Of a DNA stretch of 64,000 nucleotides, positions 1 to 12,004 are shown piece by piece. Position numbers and translations under genes: made by a program. The stretch's first letter is position 1, and each line of letters starts with the position of its first letter. The notes under the pieces were generated by a model. That model worked only from the letters and a program-made list of their open reading frames with translations. It made no database searches and was not told where the DNA came from. This DNA comes from Prosthecobacter sp. (GTDB lineage: Bacteria > Verrucomicrobiota > Verrucomicrobiia > Verrucomicrobiales > Verrucomicrobiaceae), in the NCBI GenBank assembly GCA_019186985.1, contig JABARQ010000047.1, positions 124,001 to 188,000 of the forward strand, read 5' to 3'.

Positions 1-2
1 TC

Positions 3-527
3 GAGGGCGCCGGCTGCCGCCACACCATCTTCATCCCGTCGGCAACCATGGACGCCAGGGAGCAGAACCGCAGCTCCAGGCCCCCGGCCGGCCTCACCGT
101 CCTCGTCGTCGACGATGAAAAGTCCGTTTGCGACATCCTTGGTTATGTCCTCTCCAGCCAGGGGCACCGCGTCCTCAAGGCGCATCATGCGATGGAGGCC
201 TGGACCCAGTGGCAGACCCACGACCAGAACATCGACCTTGTCATCGCCGACATCTATCTGCCCGATGGAGTGACCGGCTTTGAGCTGGTCCGCCACATGA
301 AGGCCCAGAGGCCATCGCTGCCCGTCATCTACATGAGCGGCTACCAGCCGGACACCTTCAGCGAAGGAGAAAATCTCACCATTGGAATAAATTACCTTTC
401 CAAACCTTTTGATGTCCTTGATCTTTTAAGCACCACCGCCAGGGCGCTGGAGTCATCCACGCCACCGACGGCCGACCAGGCGTTCAGACCCGTGACTTCC
501 GAACCGCATCCAGCCCAACAACCATGA
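3..527 (+). CDS. Hybrid sensor histidine kinase, 3' part with receiver domain (5' truncated by window)
   Basis: An ATG at 48 would give a stand-alone 159-residue receiver protein. The frame is open to the window edge, however, and the codons before the ATG read EGAGCRHTIFIPSAT. That resembles the last strand of a histidine-kinase ATPase domain (GxGTxFxIxLP). I therefore read this as the end of a hybrid kinase fused to a receiver. Counting from the ATG, the receiver has the acidic pair DDE at 22-24, the phospho-acceptor Asp68 in VIADIYLP and the conserved Lys-Pro in LSKPF. A Pro-rich tail follows. The stop overlaps the next start (ATGA), so the FadL-like gene is probably translationally coupled. 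The sensor part lies outside the window, so the stimulus is unknown. Confidence 0.75.
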   Translation, partial: EGAGCRHTIFIPSATMDAREQNRSSRPPAGLTVLVVDDEKSVCDILGYVLSSQGHRVLKAHHAMEAWTQWQTHDQNIDLVIADIYLPDGVTGFELVRHMKAQRPSLPVIYMSGYQPDTFSEGENLTIGINYLSKPFDVLDLLSTTARALESSTPPTADQAFRPVTSEPHPAQQP

Positions 528-1765
528 AGCTCAATCCCATCCCATGCTGCCTCGCAGCCTGCCTCGGCCTTCTGCTGATGACCACGCAGTCCATGAAGGG
601 CGCGGAGTCGCTGTCCCTGATCCCGGACTCCGCCGAGGCTCTAGGAACCGCCGGCGGACGTTATGCCAACCTCGGTGACGCCACCGTGGTCAGGGTCTCC
701 CCGGCCAGCATGGTGGACGCCGAACAACCTGTTCTTCAAGTCAACACCGGCATCTGGCATGGTGACGTCAAGTTTGGCTCGGTCACCGGAGTCCACCTTG
801 AGCACAACGACCCCTGGGTCTATCCGGGCAGCGTCTACGCCATCCTGCCCGTCATTCCCGGCAGGCTTGCCTTCGGCGTCGGCATCAGCACGCCTTACGG
901 CCTTGGCTCCAGCTATTCCAAGAGCAGCGCCCTGCGCTACCTCGTGCCCTATGAATCCAGCCTTCGCACGATGAGCATCACCCCGGCCGTGTCATGGCGT
1001 GTCAGCAAGAGCGTCACCGCAGGCCTTGGCCTGGACATCATGCAGGGCACCCTGGGCATCAACCAGGTCGTCCCCCTGGGCGGCTTCGACGGCGAGTTCC
1101 ACTTTGACGCCACCGGCTGGGGCGTCAGCGGTTATGGCAGCATCCGCTGGGACATCACCGAACACCAGCGCATCGCCCTCGTCGGCAGGCTGCCTCTGCG
1201 CGTGAAGATGGAGGGCACGTTCAGCGCCGACGGCGTCGCCCCGGGCCTGCCCGCCGGCTTTGACAACCACAGCAGCTTCGACACCGAGATGACCTTCCCC
1301 GGCTCCATCGCGCTGGGCTACGGCATCGACGTCACCGACCGGCTCACCCTCGGCCTGGATTTCAAATGGTCCGCCAACAGCTCCCACGACGACATCCCCC
1401 TCAACACGAGCAACAGCAACAGCCTGCTGCCCACAAACTCCATCCCCCTCAAATGGAGGAACTCCATCGACATCGGCACCGGGGCCAGCTACCGGATCAA
1501 CGACGCCTGGGTCGCCCGCGCCGGCTACCTGTTCTCGGAAAACTCCATGCCCGGCGGCACCTTCATGCCATCCATCCCGGCCTATGACCGCCACATCTTC
1601 AGCCTTGGCCTTGGCTGGAAGGGCAAGTCCAACAGCGTCGACCTGACCTACGGCTTCATCTACAATCCGGCCCGCACCGTCTCGGACGCGGACACGGCGG
1701 CCTTCAACGGCCGCTACAGGCACCAGTGGCACGTCGTGATGCTCAGCATCGGCCACAAGTTCTGA
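524..1765 (+). CDS. OmpP1/FadL-family outer-membrane transport protein
   Basis: This 413-residue protein has a signal peptide of about 26 residues (hydrophobic LAACLGLLLMTT). The mature N-terminus fits FadL/OmpP1: a Gly/Ala-rich stretch GTAGGRYANLGDATVVRVSPASM, equivalent to the family's AGRAxxADDASTxFxNPAxM. The rest is a run of alternating amphipathic beta strands, and the protein ends in Phe (SIGHKF), as outer-membrane barrels do. FadL proteins move hydrophobic molecules such as long-chain fatty acids across the outer membrane. The gene overlaps the preceding hybrid kinase by 4 bases and lies 123 bases before the PhcB-like methyltransferase, so its ligand may be the hydrophobic signal made by that cluster. 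That link is inference. Confidence 0.8.
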   Translation: MKLNPIPCCLAACLGLLLMTTQSMKGAESLSLIPDSAEALGTAGGRYANLGDATVVRVSPASMVDAEQPVLQVNTGIWHGDVKFGSVTGVHLEHNDPWVYPGSVYAILPVIPGRLAFGVGISTPYGLGSSYSKSSALRYLVPYESSLRTMSITPAVSWRVSKSVTAGLGLDIMQGTLGINQVVPLGGFDGEFHFDATGWGVSGYGSIRWDITEHQRIALVGRLPLRVKMEGTFSADGVAPGLPAGFDNHSSFDTEMTFPGSIALGYGIDVTDRLTLGLDFKWSANSSHDDIPLNTSNSNSLLPTNSIPLKWRNSIDIGTGASYRINDAWVARAGYLFSENSMPGGTFMPSIPAYDRHIFSLGLGWKGKSNSVDLTYGFIYNPARTVSDADTAAFNGRYRHQWHVVMLSIGHKF

Positions 1766-1888: not shown

Positions 1889-3346
1889 ATGGCCAATGAA
1901 ATCATCCTTCCAAATGCCGCGGGCGGCCAGCTCGCCGGGGACAGGCTGAGCATCATCTACTGCCGCAACAGCCAGGGTGCCGAGGTGCGCGGCACCCTGC
2001 TGAGGATGACACGCCACAGCGCGGTCTTCGAGGTCTACAACCCCTACAGCATCCTTCAGCTCTCCGAGGTGCTGACGGAGTTTCAGATCAGCTCCAATGA
2101 ACGCCTCCTCTATTCGGGCAGGGCCGTCATCAGCAACCTGGTCAACGCCGGCATCATGCTCGTCCTGGAAGCCGCCCTGGAGGAGGACGGCTGGCGCGAC
2201 GTGGACGTCTTCAATCCGCTGCTGCACCGCCTCGGGCTCAGGACCGAGCTCGCCGAGTTCATGGAGGACAGCAAGCGCATCTTCCGCGTCCTCCCCGACT
2301 ACAAGGTCATCGTCTCCGACATCCAGACACTCCTCACCGACCTGCGCCGCTGGATGGAGCAGGTCGAGCTCTGCATCCGCTCCCTGCCCGCAGGCGACCA
2401 TGACGAGGCTGAATCCTACGCCATCGAGGAGATCGAGGCCCCCGTTCTGCCCGCCCTCTGGCCGCTCTTCCTCAGGTTTGAGCAGGTGGCCGGCAGCGTG
2501 CCCGAGGACCTGACCGGCGTGCATCGCAGCTACGTCAAGCGCCAGCTGCACCCCATCGTCCTCTGCTCACCCTTCACCTACCGCACCTTCCAGAAGCCGC
2601 TCGGCTATGCGGGCGACTATGAAATGGTCAGCATGATGCTGCGCAACCCCTATGAGGGCAGCACCGTCTTCGCCAAGGTGCTGAACCGCGTCTTCCTGGA
2701 GTCGCCCACGGTCGTCGCCCACCGCAACCGCATCACCTACCTCCACGGACGCATCCTCGAGGAGGTCCGGGCGGGCGTCGCCTCAGGCAGGCGGGTCAGC
2801 TTCATGAACCTGGGCTGCGGCCCGGCCCAGGAGGTCCAGCGCTTCATGGAGCAGGATGAAATCAGCGACGCCGCGGACTTCACCCTGTTCGACTTCAACG
2901 ACGAAACGCTCGACTACACCACGGCCACGCTCAACAGCCTCAAGGCCAGGCACGGCCGGAGCACCGGCCTGAACCTGCAGAAGAAGTCCGTCCAGCACAT
3001 CCTCAAGGAGGGTGCCAGGGGCGCCGGGGGCGGCTTCGACGTCGTCTACTGCGCCGGCTTGTTTGATTATTTGTCAGACCGCGTCTGCAGGCGGCTGCTG
3101 GAGATCTTTTACCAGATGCTGGCCCCCGGCGGGCTCCTGATCGCGACCAACGTGCATTCCGCCAACCCCTCCCGCCAGTGGATGGAGGGGGTCATGGACT
3201 GGCACCTGGTCTACCGCGACGAGGCGCAGTTCCTGGCCCTCGCGCCGGAACATGCGCCGGAAGGGGCCATCACGGTGCAGGCCGACCCGACGGGCGTGAA
3301 CATTTTCCTCGAAGTCAGGAAACCCGTCCATGACCCGACTTCTTGA
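1889..3346 (+). CDS. PhcB-like SAM-dependent methyltransferase with N-terminal PilZ-like region
   Basis: The ORF can be extended upstream to a TTG at 1778, but that extension is Cys/His/Arg-rich and looks like leader sequence. The ATG at 1889 (MANEIILPN) is preferred and gives 485 residues. Residues 15-95 resemble a PilZ-type beta barrel. The C-terminal half is a class I methyltransferase: glycine motif FMNLGCGPAQEV near 304, acidic strand LFDFND near 333, and YCAGLFDYLSDRVCRRLL near 387, followed by MLAPGGLLIATNV. This layout is the one annotated as PhcB, which methylates 3-hydroxy fatty acids to make the Ralstonia quorum signal. It overlaps the next kinase gene by 17 bases. The product chemistry is inferred from family and context. 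Confidence 0.7.
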   Translation: MANEIILPNAAGGQLAGDRLSIIYCRNSQGAEVRGTLLRMTRHSAVFEVYNPYSILQLSEVLTEFQISSNERLLYSGRAVISNLVNAGIMLVLEAALEEDGWRDVDVFNPLLHRLGLRTELAEFMEDSKRIFRVLPDYKVIVSDIQTLLTDLRRWMEQVELCIRSLPAGDHDEAESYAIEEIEAPVLPALWPLFLRFEQVAGSVPEDLTGVHRSYVKRQLHPIVLCSPFTYRTFQKPLGYAGDYEMVSMMLRNPYEGSTVFAKVLNRVFLESPTVVAHRNRITYLHGRILEEVRAGVASGRRVSFMNLGCGPAQEVQRFMEQDEISDAADFTLFDFNDETLDYTTATLNSLKARHGRSTGLNLQKKSVQHILKEGARGAGGGFDVVYCAGLFDYLSDRVCRRLLEIFYQMLAPGGLLIATNVHSANPSRQWMEGVMDWHLVYRDEAQFLALAPEHAPEGAITVQADPTGVNIFLEVRKPVHDPTS

Positions 3347-6062
3347 TCCAGAAGACCGCCACGGCTCATGGCTCGCCTTCCTGCGCCATGAAGTCCCCAT
3401 CCAGCGTGCGAACTACCGCATCTGCTGCGTGGTGGCCATGATTTTCATGCCGGCCGGATCCTTCCTGGAGCTCCTCCTGCCCGACCGCAGCCACCTCTGG
3501 AACTTCATGCCCGCACGCTGGCTGAACAGCCTGGCCCTCGCCATCATCTGGCTCCTGCTTGGCAGGGTGAAGTCCGCCAGGATGGTGCGACTCCTGGGCC
3601 TCTCCGTGGCGCTGCCCCCCATCACCGCCATCGCCTGGATGATCCACCAGCTCGGCGGCGCCGAATCCAGCTACTACGCCGGCCTGAACCTCGTCATGGT
3701 CGGCGCCGTCCTGCTCATGCGCTGGACCGTCTGGGACAGCACCCTCGTGGTCCTCGCCACCATGACCGCCTACCTGCTCGCCTGCATCGGAGGCGAGCAG
3801 TCGCTGCTCAGCGGCATCTTCCTCAGCAACCTCTACTTCATCTTCGTCACCGGCGTCATGGTGGTCGTCGGCACCTGGCTCTACAACAGCATCCGGTTCA
3901 ACGAGTTCCTGCTCCGCCGCACCCTCGACCAGAAGCACGAGGAGGTCGTGCAGGCCAACCTCAAGCTCGAGGAGAACAACCAGAAGCTTCGCGAGCTCGA
4001 CGAGGCCAAGAGCCGCTTCTTTGCCAACATCAGCCACGAGCTGCGCACGCCCCTCACCCTCCTCATCGCCCCGGTGGAAACACTGCTGCACAAGGGGGCC
4101 GACATCTCCCCGGAACAGCGGCAGGAGATGCTGGCCACCATGCAGGCCAACGCGATGCGCCTGCTCAAGCTCATCAACACCCTGCTCGAGCTCGTCCGCC
4201 TCGACACCCGCGCCGTCGAACTCCGGAAGGCCCCCATGCTGATGTCCGACTTCATCCAGGGGCTGGGCCGGGCCTGCAGCGCCCTGGCCCAGGACAAGCG
4301 CATCACCCTTCACGTCACCTGCGATCCGGAAATCCGCCCCATGCTGGCCGACGTCGAAAAGCTCGAGCGCATCTGCCTCAACCTCCTGTTCAACGCCCTC
4401 AAGTTCACGCCTGCCGGCGGCACCATCCGCTTCAGCGCCACGCTCAGCGGCGGCAGCGTGCTCATCCAGGTCAAGGACTCCGGCGTCGGCATCGCCAAGG
4501 AGCACCTGCCCCACCTCTTCAGCCGCTTCTGGCAGGCAGACGCCTCCTCCCAGCGCCGCTTCCAGGGCCTCGGCCTCGGCCTGGCCCTCGTCAAGGAACT
4601 CGCCGAAGTTCATGGAGGCTCCGTCTCCGTTGAAAGCGCCCTCGGCAAGGGTGCCGCCTTCACCGTTCAACTCCCCTATGAGGAGGCTGCCGCCGAAGCC
4701 CAGGCCGCCAGGCCCAGGCTGAACGCCGATGGCGAGCCCACCACCGGCGAATGGATCATGGATCTGTACCGGCGCGCCGAATTCTCAGGTTCCGTCTCCC
4801 ACATCCAGCGCCGCCGCGACCTGCCCGCCGCCGTCTCCCAGCCGCGACCTCCCAGCACTCCCGTCAGGCAGAACAAGCCCAGGCTGCTCATCGCCGAGGA
4901 TGAGCCGGACATGATGGCCTACCTCCGCGGCCAGCTGGCCGACTCCTTTGAAATCATCGAGGCCCTCGACGGCAACGAAGCCGTGACCAAGGCCGTCCAG
5001 TACCTGCCCGACGCCATCCTCTCCGACCTCATGATGCCCTACAAGGACGGCATGCAGGTCTGCCGTGAGCTTCGGGAACGCACCTCCACCCGGGCCATCC
5101 CGGTCGTGCTCCTCACCGCACGCCCGGACGAACGCACCAAGATCGAAGCACTCACCGCCGGCGCCACCGACTTTGTCGGCAAGCCCTTCTCCCTCACCGA
5201 GGTGAGGGTCCGCCTCAACAACCTGGTCGAATCCCACCGGCATGAAAAGAAGCTCGCCGAGCAGACCGCACGCCTCGAGTCCGCCCTGGAGCAGCTCAAG
5301 GAGTCCGAAGCCCTGCTCGTCCGGCAGGAAAAGCTGTCCTCCCTGGGCCGCATGAGCGCAGGCCTGATCCACGAAATCAACAACCCCCTCAACTTCGCCG
5401 TCCAGGGGCTGCATTTCCTCCGCCAGCAGATGCCCCAGGTCCCGGCGGAGTCGCGGGAGGTCTTCATCGAAACGCTCGGGGACATCGAGGCCGGGGTGAA
5501 CCGCGTCTCCACCATCATCGCCGACCTGCGCAGCTTCACCCGCACCGACAACACCAAGCTTGTCGAATTCGAAATCCGGCCGCTCATCGAAACCGTGCTG
5601 AGGTTCTTCTCCCACCAGATCAAGGGCTTCGTCGAAGTACACATCGACATCCCCGAAGGCATGGTCATGCTTGGCAACCACGGCCAGATCACCCAGGTGC
5701 TTGTCAACCTGGTCCAGAACTCGCTGGACGCCATGGATGAAAGGTCCTTCCAGAATGACGAAAAACCCGCCCTTCACATCTCCGCCCGCGAAGAGGGCGG
5801 CAGGATCGTGCTCAAGGTCAGGGACAACGGCGCGGGCATGACCACCGAAACCCAGGACCACGTCTTTGACCCCTTCTTCACCACCAAGGACGTCGGCAAG
5901 GGCATGGGTCTTGGACTGGCCATCTCCCACCGCATCATCATGGATCATCAGGGTTCGATCTCCCTCAGGTCAAAGCCCGGTGAAGGAACCGAATTTATTC
6001 TGGATTTACCCCAAGCCTGTTCGTATGTTCACCCACATCCGGAGGCGGCGGCTTCTACCTAA
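3330..6062 (+). CDS. PhcS-PhcR-like fused kinase: membrane histidine kinase + receiver + second histidine kinase
   Basis: The protein has 910 residues. About six membrane helices lie at 28-182, then a coiled coil at 190-228. The first kinase unit follows, with H-box FFANISHELRTP (His236), N-box LNLLFNALKF and G-boxes DSGVGI and GLGLGLAL. After a Pro-rich linker comes a receiver (IAEDEPD, phospho-acceptor Asp566 in LSDLMMP, GKPF). A second, differently typed kinase unit follows, with H-box GLIHEINNPL (His681), N-box NLVQNSLDAM and G-boxes DNGAGM and GMGLGLAI. In Ralstonia the first part would be PhcS, and the receiver-plus-kinase part PhcR, which is unusual in having a kinase output domain. 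Here both sit in one polypeptide. Both phosphorylatable histidines and the Asp are intact. Confidence 0.8.
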   Translation: MTRLLDPEDRHGSWLAFLRHEVPIQRANYRICCVVAMIFMPAGSFLELLLPDRSHLWNFMPARWLNSLALAIIWLLLGRVKSARMVRLLGLSVALPPITAIAWMIHQLGGAESSYYAGLNLVMVGAVLLMRWTVWDSTLVVLATMTAYLLACIGGEQSLLSGIFLSNLYFIFVTGVMVVVGTWLYNSIRFNEFLLRRTLDQKHEEVVQANLKLEENNQKLRELDEAKSRFFANISHELRTPLTLLIAPVETLLHKGADISPEQRQEMLATMQANAMRLLKLINTLLELVRLDTRAVELRKAPMLMSDFIQGLGRACSALAQDKRITLHVTCDPEIRPMLADVEKLERICLNLLFNALKFTPAGGTIRFSATLSGGSVLIQVKDSGVGIAKEHLPHLFSRFWQADASSQRRFQGLGLGLALVKELAEVHGGSVSVESALGKGAAFTVQLPYEEAAAEAQAARPRLNADGEPTTGEWIMDLYRRAEFSGSVSHIQRRRDLPAAVSQPRPPSTPVRQNKPRLLIAEDEPDMMAYLRGQLADSFEIIEALDGNEAVTKAVQYLPDAILSDLMMPYKDGMQVCRELRERTSTRAIPVVLLTARPDERTKIEALTAGATDFVGKPFSLTEVRVRLNNLVESHRHEKKLAEQTARLESALEQLKESEALLVRQEKLSSLGRMSAGLIHEINNPLNFAVQGLHFLRQQMPQVPAESREVFIETLGDIEAGVNRVSTIIADLRSFTRTDNTKLVEFEIRPLIETVLRFFSHQIKGFVEVHIDIPEGMVMLGNHGQITQVLVNLVQNSLDAMDERSFQNDEKPALHISAREEGGRIVLKVRDNGAGMTTETQDHVFDPFFTTKDVGKGMGLGLAISHRIIMDHQGSISLRSKPGEGTEFILDLPQACSYVHPHPEAAAST

Positions 6063-6073
6063 CCCCCAAGCTC

Positions 6074-7330
6074 ATGCACGATTATAAGCGCTATCACGTC
6101 CTGTACGTCGATGACGAGGAAATGTCCCTCAAATACTTCTCAAGGACGTTCGGAAACGAATTCCAGATCATCACGGCCTCAAGCGCCGCCGATGCACTCA
6201 AGCTCATCCAGGAACGGGGTGATGAAATCGGCGTGCTGCTCACCGACCAGCGAATGCCTGGCGAAAAGGGCCTCCAGCTCCTCGAACGCGCCCGCCAGCT
6301 CCGGCCGCGGATGGTGCGCATGATGGTCACCGCCTATGCCGACTTCGGCGTCACCGTCGATGCCGTCAACCATGGCAACATCTTCCGCTACATCTCCAAG
6401 CCCATCCAGGTGGAGGACATGCGCAACACCCTCAAGCGCGCCCTGGAGTACTACCTCCTCCAGCGTGAGCGCGACGAACTGCTCATGCAGAAGCTCTCGG
6501 TGATCCAGAACATGATCATCGCCGACCGAATCATCAGCCTCGGCGTCCTCGCCGCAGGACTCAGCCAGCAGCTCCGCAACCCGCTGGAGGCCGTGCGAAC
6601 CTTCCTGCACCAGACTCCCGCCAAGCTCCGCTATGAAGACCTCGACCTGAACCGTCTCCGCGACCCGGGCTTCTGGAAGGACTTTCACTCCCAGGTGCTC
6701 GAACACGCCCACCAGGTCAGCGAGCTTGTCCGCCATCTCGACAACATTGCCCTGCCGGAAAGCACCAGCAACGAGACCTACGTCCAGCCCTTCGCCGTCA
6801 TCAGCGACGTCGTTCAAAAGGCCCGGCCAAGGCTCGACAGCCTCGGCATCAAGGTCAGTCTCAACCTCCCCGAAAACCTGCCGCACCTCCACGTCAACGC
6901 CGGCAAGTTCGCCCGCATGTTTGAGCTGCTCATCGAGGATGAGATCGTCAACCTGCCCTCCGGCTCCACCATCCACCTCGGCGCCGAAGTCCTCTCGCTC
7001 TCCGGCAATCCCGTGCGCCTGCGCTTCACCCTCTCCGACGACGGCCCCGGCATCCCGCCGGAATCCATGCGCTCCGTCTTCGACCCCTTCAGCATGCACA
7101 AGCCGGACGAGCAGAAGTTCGGCCTCAACCTCCTCGGCGTCTTCTTCCTCGCCCATCATTATGGAGGCACCGTCCGCGCCGCCAACGCCAGCGGCAGGGG
7201 AGTCGTCTACTCGCTCGAAATCCCCGTGACCTCCGGCCCCCCGGTGAACCCCGAGGTCAGCAGCGAGGAGTTCGTCACCAAGGTCCTGGTCAACGACGCC
7301 CTCTGGGAAAAGCTGCTCTCCGGCATCTAG
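6074..7330 (+). CDS. PhcQ-like response regulator with degenerate histidine-kinase output domain
   Basis: This 418-residue protein starts 11 bases after the fused kinase. The receiver is canonical: YVDDEE at 11-16, Asp58 in LLTDQRMPG, Thr86 and Lys109 (YISKP). The rest is laid out like a histidine kinase but looks dead. The H-box position reads GLSQQLRNPL, where Gln replaces the phospho-accepting His, and the N-box reads LLIEDEIVNL without its Asn. A G1-like DDGPGI and a G2-like FGLNLLG remain. No DNA-binding domain is present. It most likely acts as a phosphorylation-dependent partner of the upstream kinase, in the place PhcQ holds in phcBSRQ. The assignment to PhcQ rests on gene order and domain layout. 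Confidence 0.72.
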   Translation: MHDYKRYHVLYVDDEEMSLKYFSRTFGNEFQIITASSAADALKLIQERGDEIGVLLTDQRMPGEKGLQLLERARQLRPRMVRMMVTAYADFGVTVDAVNHGNIFRYISKPIQVEDMRNTLKRALEYYLLQRERDELLMQKLSVIQNMIIADRIISLGVLAAGLSQQLRNPLEAVRTFLHQTPAKLRYEDLDLNRLRDPGFWKDFHSQVLEHAHQVSELVRHLDNIALPESTSNETYVQPFAVISDVVQKARPRLDSLGIKVSLNLPENLPHLHVNAGKFARMFELLIEDEIVNLPSGSTIHLGAEVLSLSGNPVRLRFTLSDDGPGIPPESMRSVFDPFSMHKPDEQKFGLNLLGVFFLAHHYGGTVRAANASGRGVVYSLEIPVTSGPPVNPEVSSEEFVTKVLVNDALWEKLLSGI

Positions 7331-7372: not shown

Positions 7373-8455
7373 ATGCCGCCAGACGCCCCCTACCGCCCCA
7401 TGACCCCGTCCGAAGCACGCCGACTGCGTGACGATCTGGACAGGCGGGGCGGCAGGCTTGTCTTCACCAACGGCTGCTTTGACCTCCTTCATGCCGGCCA
7501 CGTCCGCTACCTCCAGGAGGCCCGCCACCTCGGCGATGCCCTCATCATCGGCCTCAACTCCGACGAATCCGTCCGTGAACTGAAGGGGCCGACCCGCCCC
7601 CTCAACGGCGAATGTGACCGCGCCGAAGTCCTGTCCTCCCTGCGCGCCGTCGACGGCGTGGTCATCTTCAACGGCAAGCGCGCCACTCCTCTGATCGAAC
7701 AGATCCAGCCCCACGTCTACGCCAAGGGTGGAGACTACACGCCGGAAACCCTCGACCCCGGCGAAAAGGCCGCCCTTGACGCTGCAGGAACCGACATCCA
7801 GATCCTCTCCCTCGTCCCCAACCGCTCCACCACCGGCATCATCCAAAAAATGACCGCCTCGGAAAGCGCGCCCGCCCCCCTGCGGCTGGGCGTTCTCGGC
7901 TCCGGTGAAGGCTCCAATCTCCGCGCACTCCTTGACGCCATCGATTCAGGACGACTCAACGCCAGGATCGTCGCCGCCATTTCCGACCAGGAGGACTCCG
8001 GCTTCCTTAATATCGCGAAATCCGGGGGACTGCCCTCCCATGCCGTCGACGGCGGCCCCAACCCGCGCCGCTTTGACAACGCCGCCCAGCAACATGTCGC
8101 CGACATCCTCCAAAAGCAGCAGGTGGATGTCGTCGTGCTGACCGGCTTCATGAAGATCCTCAAGGAACCCGTGCTCGACGCCTTCGCAGGCCGGATCGTC
8201 AACGTCCACCCCTCCCTGCTGCCCGCCCACAAGGGGGCCACCGCCGTTCAGGACGCCATCGACGCCGGTGACAAGGTCACGGGTTGCACGGTCCATCTCG
8301 TCACCCGCGAGATCGATGCAGGCCGCATCCTGGCCCAGGCCGAGGTCCCCATCCTTGATGGCGACGATGCCGCCAGCCTCCACCGCCGGATCAAGGAACA
8401 GGAGCACCGCCTGCTCCCGGAGGTTCTCTCCCAGTGGAGAAAAATCCCAGGATGA
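7373..8455 (+). CDS. Fusion of RfaE2-type heptose-phosphate cytidylyl/adenylyltransferase and PurN formyltransferase
   Basis: This single open frame of 360 residues joins two enzymes. Residues 1-158 are an RfaE domain II nucleotidyltransferase: FTNGCFDLLHAGH with the HxGH motif at His40/His43, GLNSDESVRELKGPTRP, and the closing PNRSTTGIIQKM. Residues 172-358 are phosphoribosylglycinamide formyltransferase: GVLGSGEGSNLRALLDAI, NVHPSLLP (Asn277, His279) and EIDAGRILAQ (Asp315). The 38-residue spacing between Asn277 and Asp315 equals that of the catalytic Asn and Asp in E. coli PurN. There is no stop between the halves. An internal in-frame ATG at 7850 could start a separate PurN, but I see no clear Shine-Dalgarno before it. 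The enzymes belong to LPS core and purine synthesis, so the pairing is odd. Confidence 0.8.
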   Translation: MPPDAPYRPMTPSEARRLRDDLDRRGGRLVFTNGCFDLLHAGHVRYLQEARHLGDALIIGLNSDESVRELKGPTRPLNGECDRAEVLSSLRAVDGVVIFNGKRATPLIEQIQPHVYAKGGDYTPETLDPGEKAALDAAGTDIQILSLVPNRSTTGIIQKMTASESAPAPLRLGVLGSGEGSNLRALLDAIDSGRLNARIVAAISDQEDSGFLNIAKSGGLPSHAVDGGPNPRRFDNAAQQHVADILQKQQVDVVVLTGFMKILKEPVLDAFAGRIVNVHPSLLPAHKGATAVQDAIDAGDKVTGCTVHLVTREIDAGRILAQAEVPILDGDDAASLHRRIKEQEHRLLPEVLSQWRKIPG

Positions 8456-10945: not shown

Positions 10946-11029
10946 GGCAGCTCCTACTACACCCTTTGCCGGACAATCCTTCAATTCCAAATCTCCCGCC
11001 CGGCGGACGCCTCCCGCCTTAATGTATTG

Positions 11030-12004
11030 ATGAAACCCAATGCGTTGATACGATTCAGCCCCTTGACCTCCCTCCTCAAATCGCTCAGCCTCATCGCCGA
11101 CCCCACGCGGCTGCGCCTGCTGCTGCTCCTGAAAAGCGAGGAGCTAAGTGTCGCCGAACTCCAGGAAATCCTCTCCCTCCCCCAGTCGAACATCTCCGCC
11201 CAGCTCGGCAAGCTCAAGTCGGCAGGCCTCGTGAGCGACCGCCGCTCCGGCAAAAACCGCCTTTACCGTCTGGAGGAACCCGACCGCAAGCAAACGGAGG
11301 CCTGGAACCACTTCCTCAGGCTCATCGACACGGCGGGTGAAGAAGTGCGGGAAACCAAAAAAGATGCGCACGCCCTCAAGGTCGTGCTTCAGAAGCGTGA
11401 GCGCACCGCCCAGGCCTACTTTGACGCCCTCGCCGGCAAGTTCGGCCGTCACTACATCCCCGGACGTTCCTGGAAGGCCCTGGGTGAAACCCTCCTGAAG
11501 CTGATGCCCCCCCTGGTCATCGCCGACCTGGGCGCAGGCGAAGGCACGCTTTCCCAGCTCCTGGCCCAGCGGGCGAAAAAGGTCATCGCCGTGGACAGCA
11601 GTGAAGCCATGGTGAGCTACGGCTCCGGCCTAGCGCGCCAGCACGGCTTCACCAACCTCGAATACCGCCTCGGCGACCTCGAAAACCCGCCCGTCGAGGC
11701 AGGCAGCATCGACCTCGTCCTTCTCAGCCAGGCTCTGCACCATGCCCAGCGCCCGGCCCAGGCCCTGCGCGCCGCCTTCTCCCTGCTCAAGCCCGGGGGC
11801 CGCATCGCCATCCTCGACCTGCTGCGCCATCAGTTTGAAAAAGCCCGCGAACTTTATGCCGATGTCTGGCTGGGCTTCACCGAGGCCGAGCTGCATGAGA
11901 TGCTCTCCGACGCCGGATTTCACGGCATCGAAACCAGCATCGTCCACCGCGAAACCCGCAGCCCGCACTTCCAGACCGTGCTCGCCCTCGCGGAACGGCC
12001 CTGA
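11030..12004 (+). CDS. ArsR-type regulator fused to SAM-dependent methyltransferase
   Basis: TTG at 11027 directly precedes ATG at 11030, and the ATG is taken as start (324 residues). Residues 10-85 form an ArsR winged helix: LIADPTRLRLLLLLKSEELSVAELQEIL, with recognition helix SQSNISAQLGKLKSAGLVSDRR-like sequence. A linker leads to a class I methyltransferase with IADLGAGEGTLSQLL near 163, an acidic VDSSEAM strand and LSQALHHAQRP. ArsR-methyltransferase fusions of this length occur in several phyla and are often associated with methionine/SAM metabolism. No metal-binding Cys cluster typical of metal sensors is evident. The target promoter could be its own, in the 84-base gap to the divergent protease. 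Confidence 0.82.
   Translation: MKPNALIRFSPLTSLLKSLSLIADPTRLRLLLLLKSEELSVAELQEILSLPQSNISAQLGKLKSAGLVSDRRSGKNRLYRLEEPDRKQTEAWNHFLRLIDTAGEEVRETKKDAHALKVVLQKRERTAQAYFDALAGKFGRHYIPGRSWKALGETLLKLMPPLVIADLGAGEGTLSQLLAQRAKKVIAVDSSEAMVSYGSGLARQHGFTNLEYRLGDLENPPVEAGSIDLVLLSQALHHAQRPAQALRAAFSLLKPGGRIAILDLLRHQFEKARELYADVWLGFTEAELHEMLSDAGFHGIETSIVHRETRSPHFQTVLALAERP

Follow-up and report, generated by a model that had tools for sequence, protein, structure and literature searches.

A Phc-like gene cluster with a rebuilt sensor kinase in Prosthecobacter as a candidate lipid quorum-sensing operon

The question raised by this locus is whether a verrucomicrobial genome carries a quorum-sensing operon of the Phc kind, and in what form. 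The locus lies in Prosthecobacter sp. (GenBank assembly GCA_019186985.1), in a stretch of 64,000 nucleotides that we call the window, which is positions 124001-188000 of contig C4 (JABARQ010000047.1) in a genome of 5.88 Mb. Coordinates below are window positions unless another locus is named. A preliminary description had reported three consecutive plus strand genes with the domain layout of phcB, phcS, phcR and phcQ, S and R being joined in one protein. The reading frames (485, 910 and 418 amino acids) and the Pfam matches bear out the three genes and their layout:

1889..3346, + strand: gene 1, PhcB-like S-adenosylmethionine methyltransferase, 485 amino acids (reading frame, Pfam, alignment)
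3330..6062, + strand: gene 2, sensor kinase like PhcS but carrying a kinase-receiver insert, 910 amino acids (Pfam, profiles)
6074..7330, + strand: gene 3, PhcQ-like protein, 418 amino acids (PhcQ profile 167 bits, PhcR profile 142)

Gene 2 starts inside gene 1, sharing 17 bases with it, and a gap of 11 bases separates genes 2 and 3. Pfam gave a class I methyltransferase for gene 1 (two profiles narrowly under their cut-offs), HisKA/HATPase, a receiver and a second HATPase for gene 2, with a MASE8 membrane match below cut-off, and a receiver with a kinase-type HATPase for gene 3.

Homologues of PhcB, PhcS and PhcQ were found, and to that extent the proposed PhcBSRQ-like cluster stands, while a separate PhcR was not found. 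We consider it probable, at about 0.68, that the genes form a Phc-type operon for quorum sensing by a lipid methyl ester, in which the sensor has been rebuilt and holds a built-in relay; judged by homology, the locus probably encodes a lipid-based cell-to-cell signalling system. The results computed directly are the homology to PhcB, PhcS and PhcQ, the insert in the sensor, the residues lost from gene 3, the conserved gene order and the linkage to FadL and polyketide synthase genes. We do not class the window operon as a strict phcBSRQ operon, because a test for PhcR gave a negative result and its PhcA and signal are still putative.

The methyltransferase was compared with reference proteins from Burkholderiales. 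A scan of named genomes with the gene 1 alignment, ranked by a Paraburkholderia sequence, gave as the best 80 of 538 relatives Burkholderiales genera and families, Cupriavidus among them, and one named only as Proteobacteria. Gene 1 aligned end to end with 33 PhcB sequences of the 80 fetched loci at 37-42% identity; the homology spans the whole length of gene 1, which supports the assignment to PhcB rather than to an unrelated family. Three regions can be distinguished in the protein:

1949..2179, + strand: N-terminal six-stranded domain of the methyltransferase, holding R34 (predicted model, alignment)
2216..2560, + strand: helical region joining the N-terminal domain to the methyltransferase fold (predicted model)
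2786..3319, + strand: class I methyltransferase fold with the motifs GCGPA and YCAGLFDYLSD (Pfam, alignment, model, fold search)

R34 of the window protein aligns with position 22 of C. necator PhcB, itself an arginine, and this column holds arginine in the window and all 34 rows of one alignment (A2) and in 11 of the 19 rows of another consisting mostly of class members (A1). The Ralstonia mutation positions in PMC6989110 give by our arithmetic a phcB-phcS distance fitting a protein of about 470 residues. The methyltransferase sequence had no match under E 0.2 among solved structures, and the fold search with its model returned methyltransferases among the 50 matches listed. By eye the N-terminal barrel of PhcB looks PilZ-like; we do not claim this, and PilZ is absent from the 22 Pfam families matched by 19 family members up to E 1.

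Some relatives of the enzyme occur in other settings. The reading frame at 2089-4146 of L089 (genome G152) has a receiver joined in front of a PhcB-like methyltransferase, so that the signal synthase itself may there be the target of a phospho-signal. The same genome as the window has a second, shorter methyltransferase of 311 amino acids whose homology is to the C-terminal portion of gene 1 (L092, G000:C14:3612-4307). In a plasmid of Pseudanabaena (L033, 6971-9590), genes for a sensor kinase and a receiver on the opposite strand adjoin a methyltransferase akin to the PhcB C-terminal part.

How widespread the arrangement is was surveyed in 286 genomes of the window's class. Gene 1 found a match in 67 of these at E <=0.001, and 59 were counted as carriers; the eight dropped were split (G096), covered the C-terminal part only (G071, G244) or were short and weak (G015, G029, G155, G164, G188), and a few partial matches remain among the 59 (G083, G186, G216, G171). 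Loci were fetched for all carriers minus the window and G186, which lies at a contig end, giving 57. Gene 1 is followed in 53 of the 57 loci (20 of 23 family codes) by a sensor kinase gene and this by one for a receiver protein, in the order B-S-Q, and a chance layout is rejected on this ground. The sensor has the inserted unit in 44 of the 53 and lacks it in nine, one of which (L057) is a fragment. Among the remaining four loci, L045 and L081 stop at a contig edge and L071 and L091 lack the arrangement. The neighbourhood survey accordingly upholds the cluster, and the earlier view of an unusual form in one genome was too narrow, the insert being present in 44 of the 57 fetched loci.

In a draw of 288 genomes from the phylum, 26 matched gene 1, 21 of them within the class. 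One long-form member lies outside the class (G366); a single in-frame stop breaks its sensor, and the fetched stretch showed no PhcQ-like gene. Of 81 reference loci (the 80 and a plasmid, L032), 66 have exactly B, S, R-type receiver and Q in this order, the rest having extra, split or missing pieces. The PhcR position is taken by a stand-alone receiver, with no kinase detected, in L032 (11727-12131), L095 and L106 (Paraburkholderia). Two class loci, L078 and L080, are the nearest to a complete B-S-Q-R set seen outside Burkholderiales: the genes after their sensors include one that matches PhcQ strongly (200-208 bits) and, apart from it, a PhcR-like one of full length (155-158 bits).

Gene 3 was correctly described as PhcQ-like. 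It scores 167 bits with PhcQ versus 142 with PhcR, and among the matches listed the protein encoded behind the sensor always fits PhcQ better than PhcR by score; gene 3 as PhcR is rejected since the PhcQ profile scores higher. Two parts are seen:

6086..6448, + strand: receiver of the PhcQ-like protein, Asp58 (receiver tree, residue check)
6449..7249, + strand: linker and kinase-like domain without the acceptor His (Gln165) and the N-box Asn (profile comparison, residue check)

Of the 37 kinase-bearing gene 3 proteins, the window's included, 25 have the acceptor His; the N-box Asn is missing from all 37, with Asp in its place in 31, and one keeps the second G2 glycine. With 0/37 for the N-box Asn and 1/37 for the second G2 glycine, we therefore take the kinases of this family to be dead. 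In 17 relatives gene 3 has a shorter form without a recognised kinase. This form matches PhcQ (E 3e-8, 171 columns) as well as the kinase-bearing form (E 1e-17), and gave no profile match to active kinases. The PhcQ C-terminus had no match with the PhcS, PhcR, HK1 or HK2 profiles (HK1 and HK2 being the two kinases of gene 2), and its alignment with the kinase-bearing form covered the first 48 columns only; methyltransferase controls in the same profile chain gave no match. By way of the linking shorter forms, this suggests that the PhcQ C-terminus may be a decayed kinase. In a fold search with the C. necator PhcQ model the hits were mostly receivers, and LvrB chains came at rank 15 and below, with 390-400 columns at about 22 Å root mean square deviation, a result that neither supports nor excludes a decayed kinase; a further fold comparison of the model covered mainly residues 10-145. 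The C-terminal part of PhcQ was called uncharacterised in a 2020 paper (PMC6989110), and PhcQ is reported to bind and stabilise PhcA (PMC13320629).

Upstream of gene 1, on the same strand, are two features, of which the preliminary description mentioned neither the FadL-type gene nor that the receiver at 48-527 is the tail of a 602-amino-acid protein:

1..527, + strand: receiver-kinase-receiver protein, C-terminal part (Response_reg in two stretches; HisKA slightly below cut-off)
524..1765, + strand: FadL/Toluene_X-type outer-membrane lipid channel (PF03349, 128 bits, cut-off 29.7)

The 602-amino-acid protein starts near window position -1281 and is preceded by a 597-amino-acid PAS histidine kinase (PAS_3, HATPase_c), both on the + strand beyond the window start. 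The junction between the PAS kinase and this hybrid, and that between the hybrid stop and the FadL start, overlap by a few bases, and the FadL gene ends 123 bases upstream of gene 1.

The FadL gene is the sole PF03349 match in the window's genome. Above the family cut-off FadL was found in 88 of the 286 class genomes, in 44 of the 59 carriers versus 44 of the 227 others (the eight dropped included). It lies <=10 kb from gene 1 in 29 carriers of 12 families, where 0.25 would be expected from copy number and genome size, and is the only genomic copy in 21 of those 29. It should be noted that these linkage and presence figures are uncorrected for relatedness. A polyketide synthase gene stands directly before gene 1 on the same strand in 8 of the 57 loci (L075, L077-L083). 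The four synthases seen whole have 2092-2117 residues, and the two scanned show KS-AT-DH-ER-KR-ACP, a fully reducing set in a single module. Several of these eight loci carry further receiver-kinase genes after the PhcQ-like gene.

In the sensor the locus departs from the preliminary description. Profiles for PhcS, PhcR and PhcQ were built from 52 of the 80 Burkholderiales loci with a clean S, R and Q set, and with these, trees and residue checks gene 2 was divided as follows:

3330..3944, + strand: membrane domain of the sensor, a homologue of the PhcS one (71.7 bits and E 1e-22 to the PhcS profile)
3945..4694, + strand: inserted kinase HK1, phospho-acceptor His236 (kinase trees, residue check)
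4872..5234, + strand: inserted receiver, Asp566, outside the PhcR/PhcQ receiver clade (receiver tree, residue check)
5262..6023, + strand: PhcS-type kinase HK2, phospho-acceptor His681 (kinase trees, profile comparison)

The membrane domain group matched PhcS at E 3e-46 over 193 columns by profile-profile comparison, and the PhcS membrane profile matched all 45 inserted-type sensors. The protein has both parts of a PhcS, the membrane domain and a kinase with its acceptor His, with about 430-440 residues inserted between them. On these comparisons the HK1-receiver unit sits between a PhcS-type membrane sensor and a PhcS-type kinase, and the extra first kinase, as judged from homology, is without counterpart in the Phc operon. 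Among the window frames of at least 150 amino acids and the two genes upstream, no separate PhcR scored above 37 bits apart from genes 2 and 3, the strongest matches of the PhcR profile being gene 3 at 142 bits, which PhcQ fits better, and gene 2 at 62 bits.

The preliminary description took gene 2 for a PhcS-PhcR fusion, in which the membrane domain and HK1 would be PhcS and the receiver and HK2 would be PhcR. The domain order alone fits this, the membrane domain and HK1 cover nearly the whole PhcS profile (130 bits), and the receiver with HK2 gives the 62 bits to PhcR. HK2 alone, however, scores 182 bits with PhcS, and by profile comparison HK2 and the PhcS kinase match at E 4e-68, against 3e-33 for HK1-PhcS and 4e-27 for HK2-PhcR. 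Trees were made from 31 of the 57 class loci, 15 of the 80 Burkholderiales loci and the window. With 128 kinase domains, the tree joins HK2 and the short sensors to PhcS (84 in the Shimodaira-Hasegawa-like approximate likelihood ratio test, SH-aLRT); in a careful tree of 36 of these rows this group has 88/95, and PhcS joins HK2 of two polyketide-linked loci at 100/99. Forcing PhcS with HK1 was 7.6 log units worse, not quite rejected in the approximately unbiased test (p-AU 0.057), and the eight short sensors in the tree have a kinase of HK2 type only. In the receiver tree (129 columns, 40 of 100 inner branches open) PhcR, PhcQ and the gene 3 receivers form a clade of 66 rows (SH-aLRT 99), and the inserted receiver falls outside it. 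Because HK2 groups with PhcS and the inserted receiver stands outside the PhcR/PhcQ clade, we interpret the sensor as a PhcS with a kinase-receiver insert, and hold a fusion to be very unlikely. What is left of the earlier account are the two kinase units and the PhcS-type membrane domain; its C-terminal receiver-kinase as PhcR is disfavoured.

Two further alternatives concern the enzyme rather than the sensor. It might work like CheR, as an adaptation methyltransferase acting on the partner sensor protein, in a one-cell sensory system with no diffusible signal. In favour of this, 13 of 19 family members match CheR weakly (E 0.0008 at best) and L089 has the receiver-enzyme fusion, hinting at a phospho-signal that acts on the enzyme, but the match in the member shown covers 42 residues at 18.8 bits (cut-off 27), and the NCBIfam CheR match in the window reaches 15 bits against a cut-off of 435. 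Moreover, the end-to-end homology is to PhcB, whose reported product is a lipid ester, and the FadL and polyketide synthase neighbours point to lipid, so that adaptation of a sensor appears improbable to us. The enzyme might also make or modify a membrane or storage lipid, with the kinases watching the state of the envelope or its lipids instead of cell density. FadL, an LptF/LptG-type permease downstream in the window and some polyketide synthases are envelope or lipid genes and would suit such a role; the gene order and homology, on the other hand, are those of an operon that produces a diffusible signal in the members studied, and LptG is not in the neighbour clusters common to at least six loci. 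We consider this explanation unlikely.

Several observations weigh against a quorum-sensing operon of the Phc kind. The PhcB, PhcS, PhcR and PhcQ references come from Cupriavidus, Paraburkholderia, Janthinobacterium and their kin, so the comparison rests on Burkholderiales relatives and R. solanacearum sequences are not among them. The substrate pocket is not legible in the methyltransferase model. Twenty-five of the 37 gene 3 kinase domains retain the acceptor His, and because of this the term dead rests in those 25 on the other lost residues. FadL is on another contig in 15 of the 59 carriers and missing above the cut-off in another 15; among five genomes of the window's genus it is beside phcB in one, elsewhere in two and absent from two; and tblastn with two queries found it in none of the 80 Burkholderiales loci, within the fetched stretches. 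Being patchy in carriers and unseen in the Burkholderiales stretches, FadL is therefore not an obligatory component. A PhcA orthologue was not recognised: the genome has 10 LysR-type matches, obtained with no authentic PhcA as query, and two Cupriavidus stretches in which such a query was sought gave, by eye, an OxyR-like gene and no convincing LysR gene. Finally, the PAS kinase and the hybrid protein lie just upstream of the operon, so that the PhcS domain may not be the sole input.

If the operon is of the Phc kind, the signal could run as follows. The PhcB-like enzyme would methylate a fatty-acid-like acyl chain to a diffusible ester, whose passage over the outer membrane the FadL channel may aid where present. 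The PhcS-type membrane domain would sense the ester and control HK1, which would pass phosphate to the receiver in the same chain; this receiver may then switch HK2, by analogy with LvrB, in which receiver phosphorylation frees the kinase domain (PMC13269768). HK2 would in turn phosphorylate the receiver of the PhcQ-like protein, and the dead kinase domain of gene 3 might serve as a binding platform for an output regulator, like PhcQ for PhcA in Ralstonia. The residues for the proposed phosphate flow, His236, Asp566, His681 and Asp58, are all present.

Known systems resemble the locus to different degrees. With the phcBSRQ operon of Ralstonia and Cupriavidus it shares a full-length PhcB including the N-terminal domain, the membrane domain and kinase of PhcS, the receiver and linker of PhcQ, and the gene order minus R; in Cupriavidus, where phcBSRQ operons are described, the Phc products of one strain are 56-75% identical to those of Ralstonia (PMC2842291, PMC2864759). 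It differs in the kinase-receiver insert of its PhcS and the lack of a separate PhcR in the window, in a gene 3 that keeps a recognisable though catalytically broken kinase domain, and in the FadL and further kinase genes of its strand run, to which some relatives add a polyketide synthase. The LvrA-LvrB pair of pathogenic Leptospira likewise has a kinase-receiver-kinase protein followed by a receiver-kinase protein, and phosphotransfer from LvrA to LvrB has been shown in vitro (PMC5863495). LvrA is the best NCBIfam match of gene 2, but at 308 bits it is far under the cut-off of 1200, and the LvrB match reaches 36.7 bits against a cut-off of 500, so the proteins are not assigned to these families. 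Furthermore, LvrA and LvrB are both without transmembrane regions (PMC5863495), LvrB is an active kinase whereas gene 3 is without the catalytic residues, and a search of PMC5863495 and PMC13269768 found no mention of a methyltransferase. In Sinorhizobium an outer-membrane FadL also handles a lipid quorum signal, taking up long-chain acyl-homoserine lactones (PMC9938287), although signal class and sensor are others.

Among the papers listed in a literature search, subscription papers excepted, we found no earlier report of a Phc system or phcB in Verrucomicrobia, and none tying 3-hydroxypalmitic acid methyl ester to Verrucomicrobia or PhcB to FadL. If true, our interpretation would place lipid quorum sensing in a class for which we found no Phc system described. 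The Phc field would gain a distant comparison, with a relay built into the sensor and a PhcQ whose kinase origin may still be visible, and the decayed kinase offers a testable idea for the uncharacterised C-terminal part of PhcQ. The FadL and polyketide synthase partners suggest how the signal may be made and moved, and so point to concrete chemistry.

Regarding gene history, sampling covered the window's class and phylum and Burkholderiales. In a methyltransferase tree of 82 rows Burkholderiales PhcB joins the eight polyketide-linked loci with support 99, and a careful tree of 43 of those rows gives the same grouping (100/98), in agreement with the kinase tree. One of five outgroup rows fell inside the family in the larger tree, hence two were kept for the careful one; with these two, the pair of Burkholderiales and polyketide-linked loci nests inside the class. 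Placing all class and phylum members on one side was 6.2 log units worse and not rejected (p-AU 0.055). From the trees, a transfer between the class and Burkholderiales, in either direction, is likely. Further we speculate, at somewhat less than even odds, that the Phc system of Ralstonia came by transfer between phyla from the widespread system of the class, that in the polyketide-linked loci, its closest sampled relatives by phcB and phcS, a dedicated fatty-acid-like synthase feeds PhcB, that Burkholderiales afterwards lost the relay, and that the PhcQ C-terminus is the remains of a kinase turned binding platform.

Promoter-like sites numbered 3 versus 1.0 expected and terminator-like sites 5 versus 4.9. 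Following gene 3, cytidylyltransferase-like and formyltransferase domains are combined in a single reading frame at 7373-8455 (Pfam), and at 11027-12004 a methyltransferase is fused to an ArsR-type helix-turn-helix.

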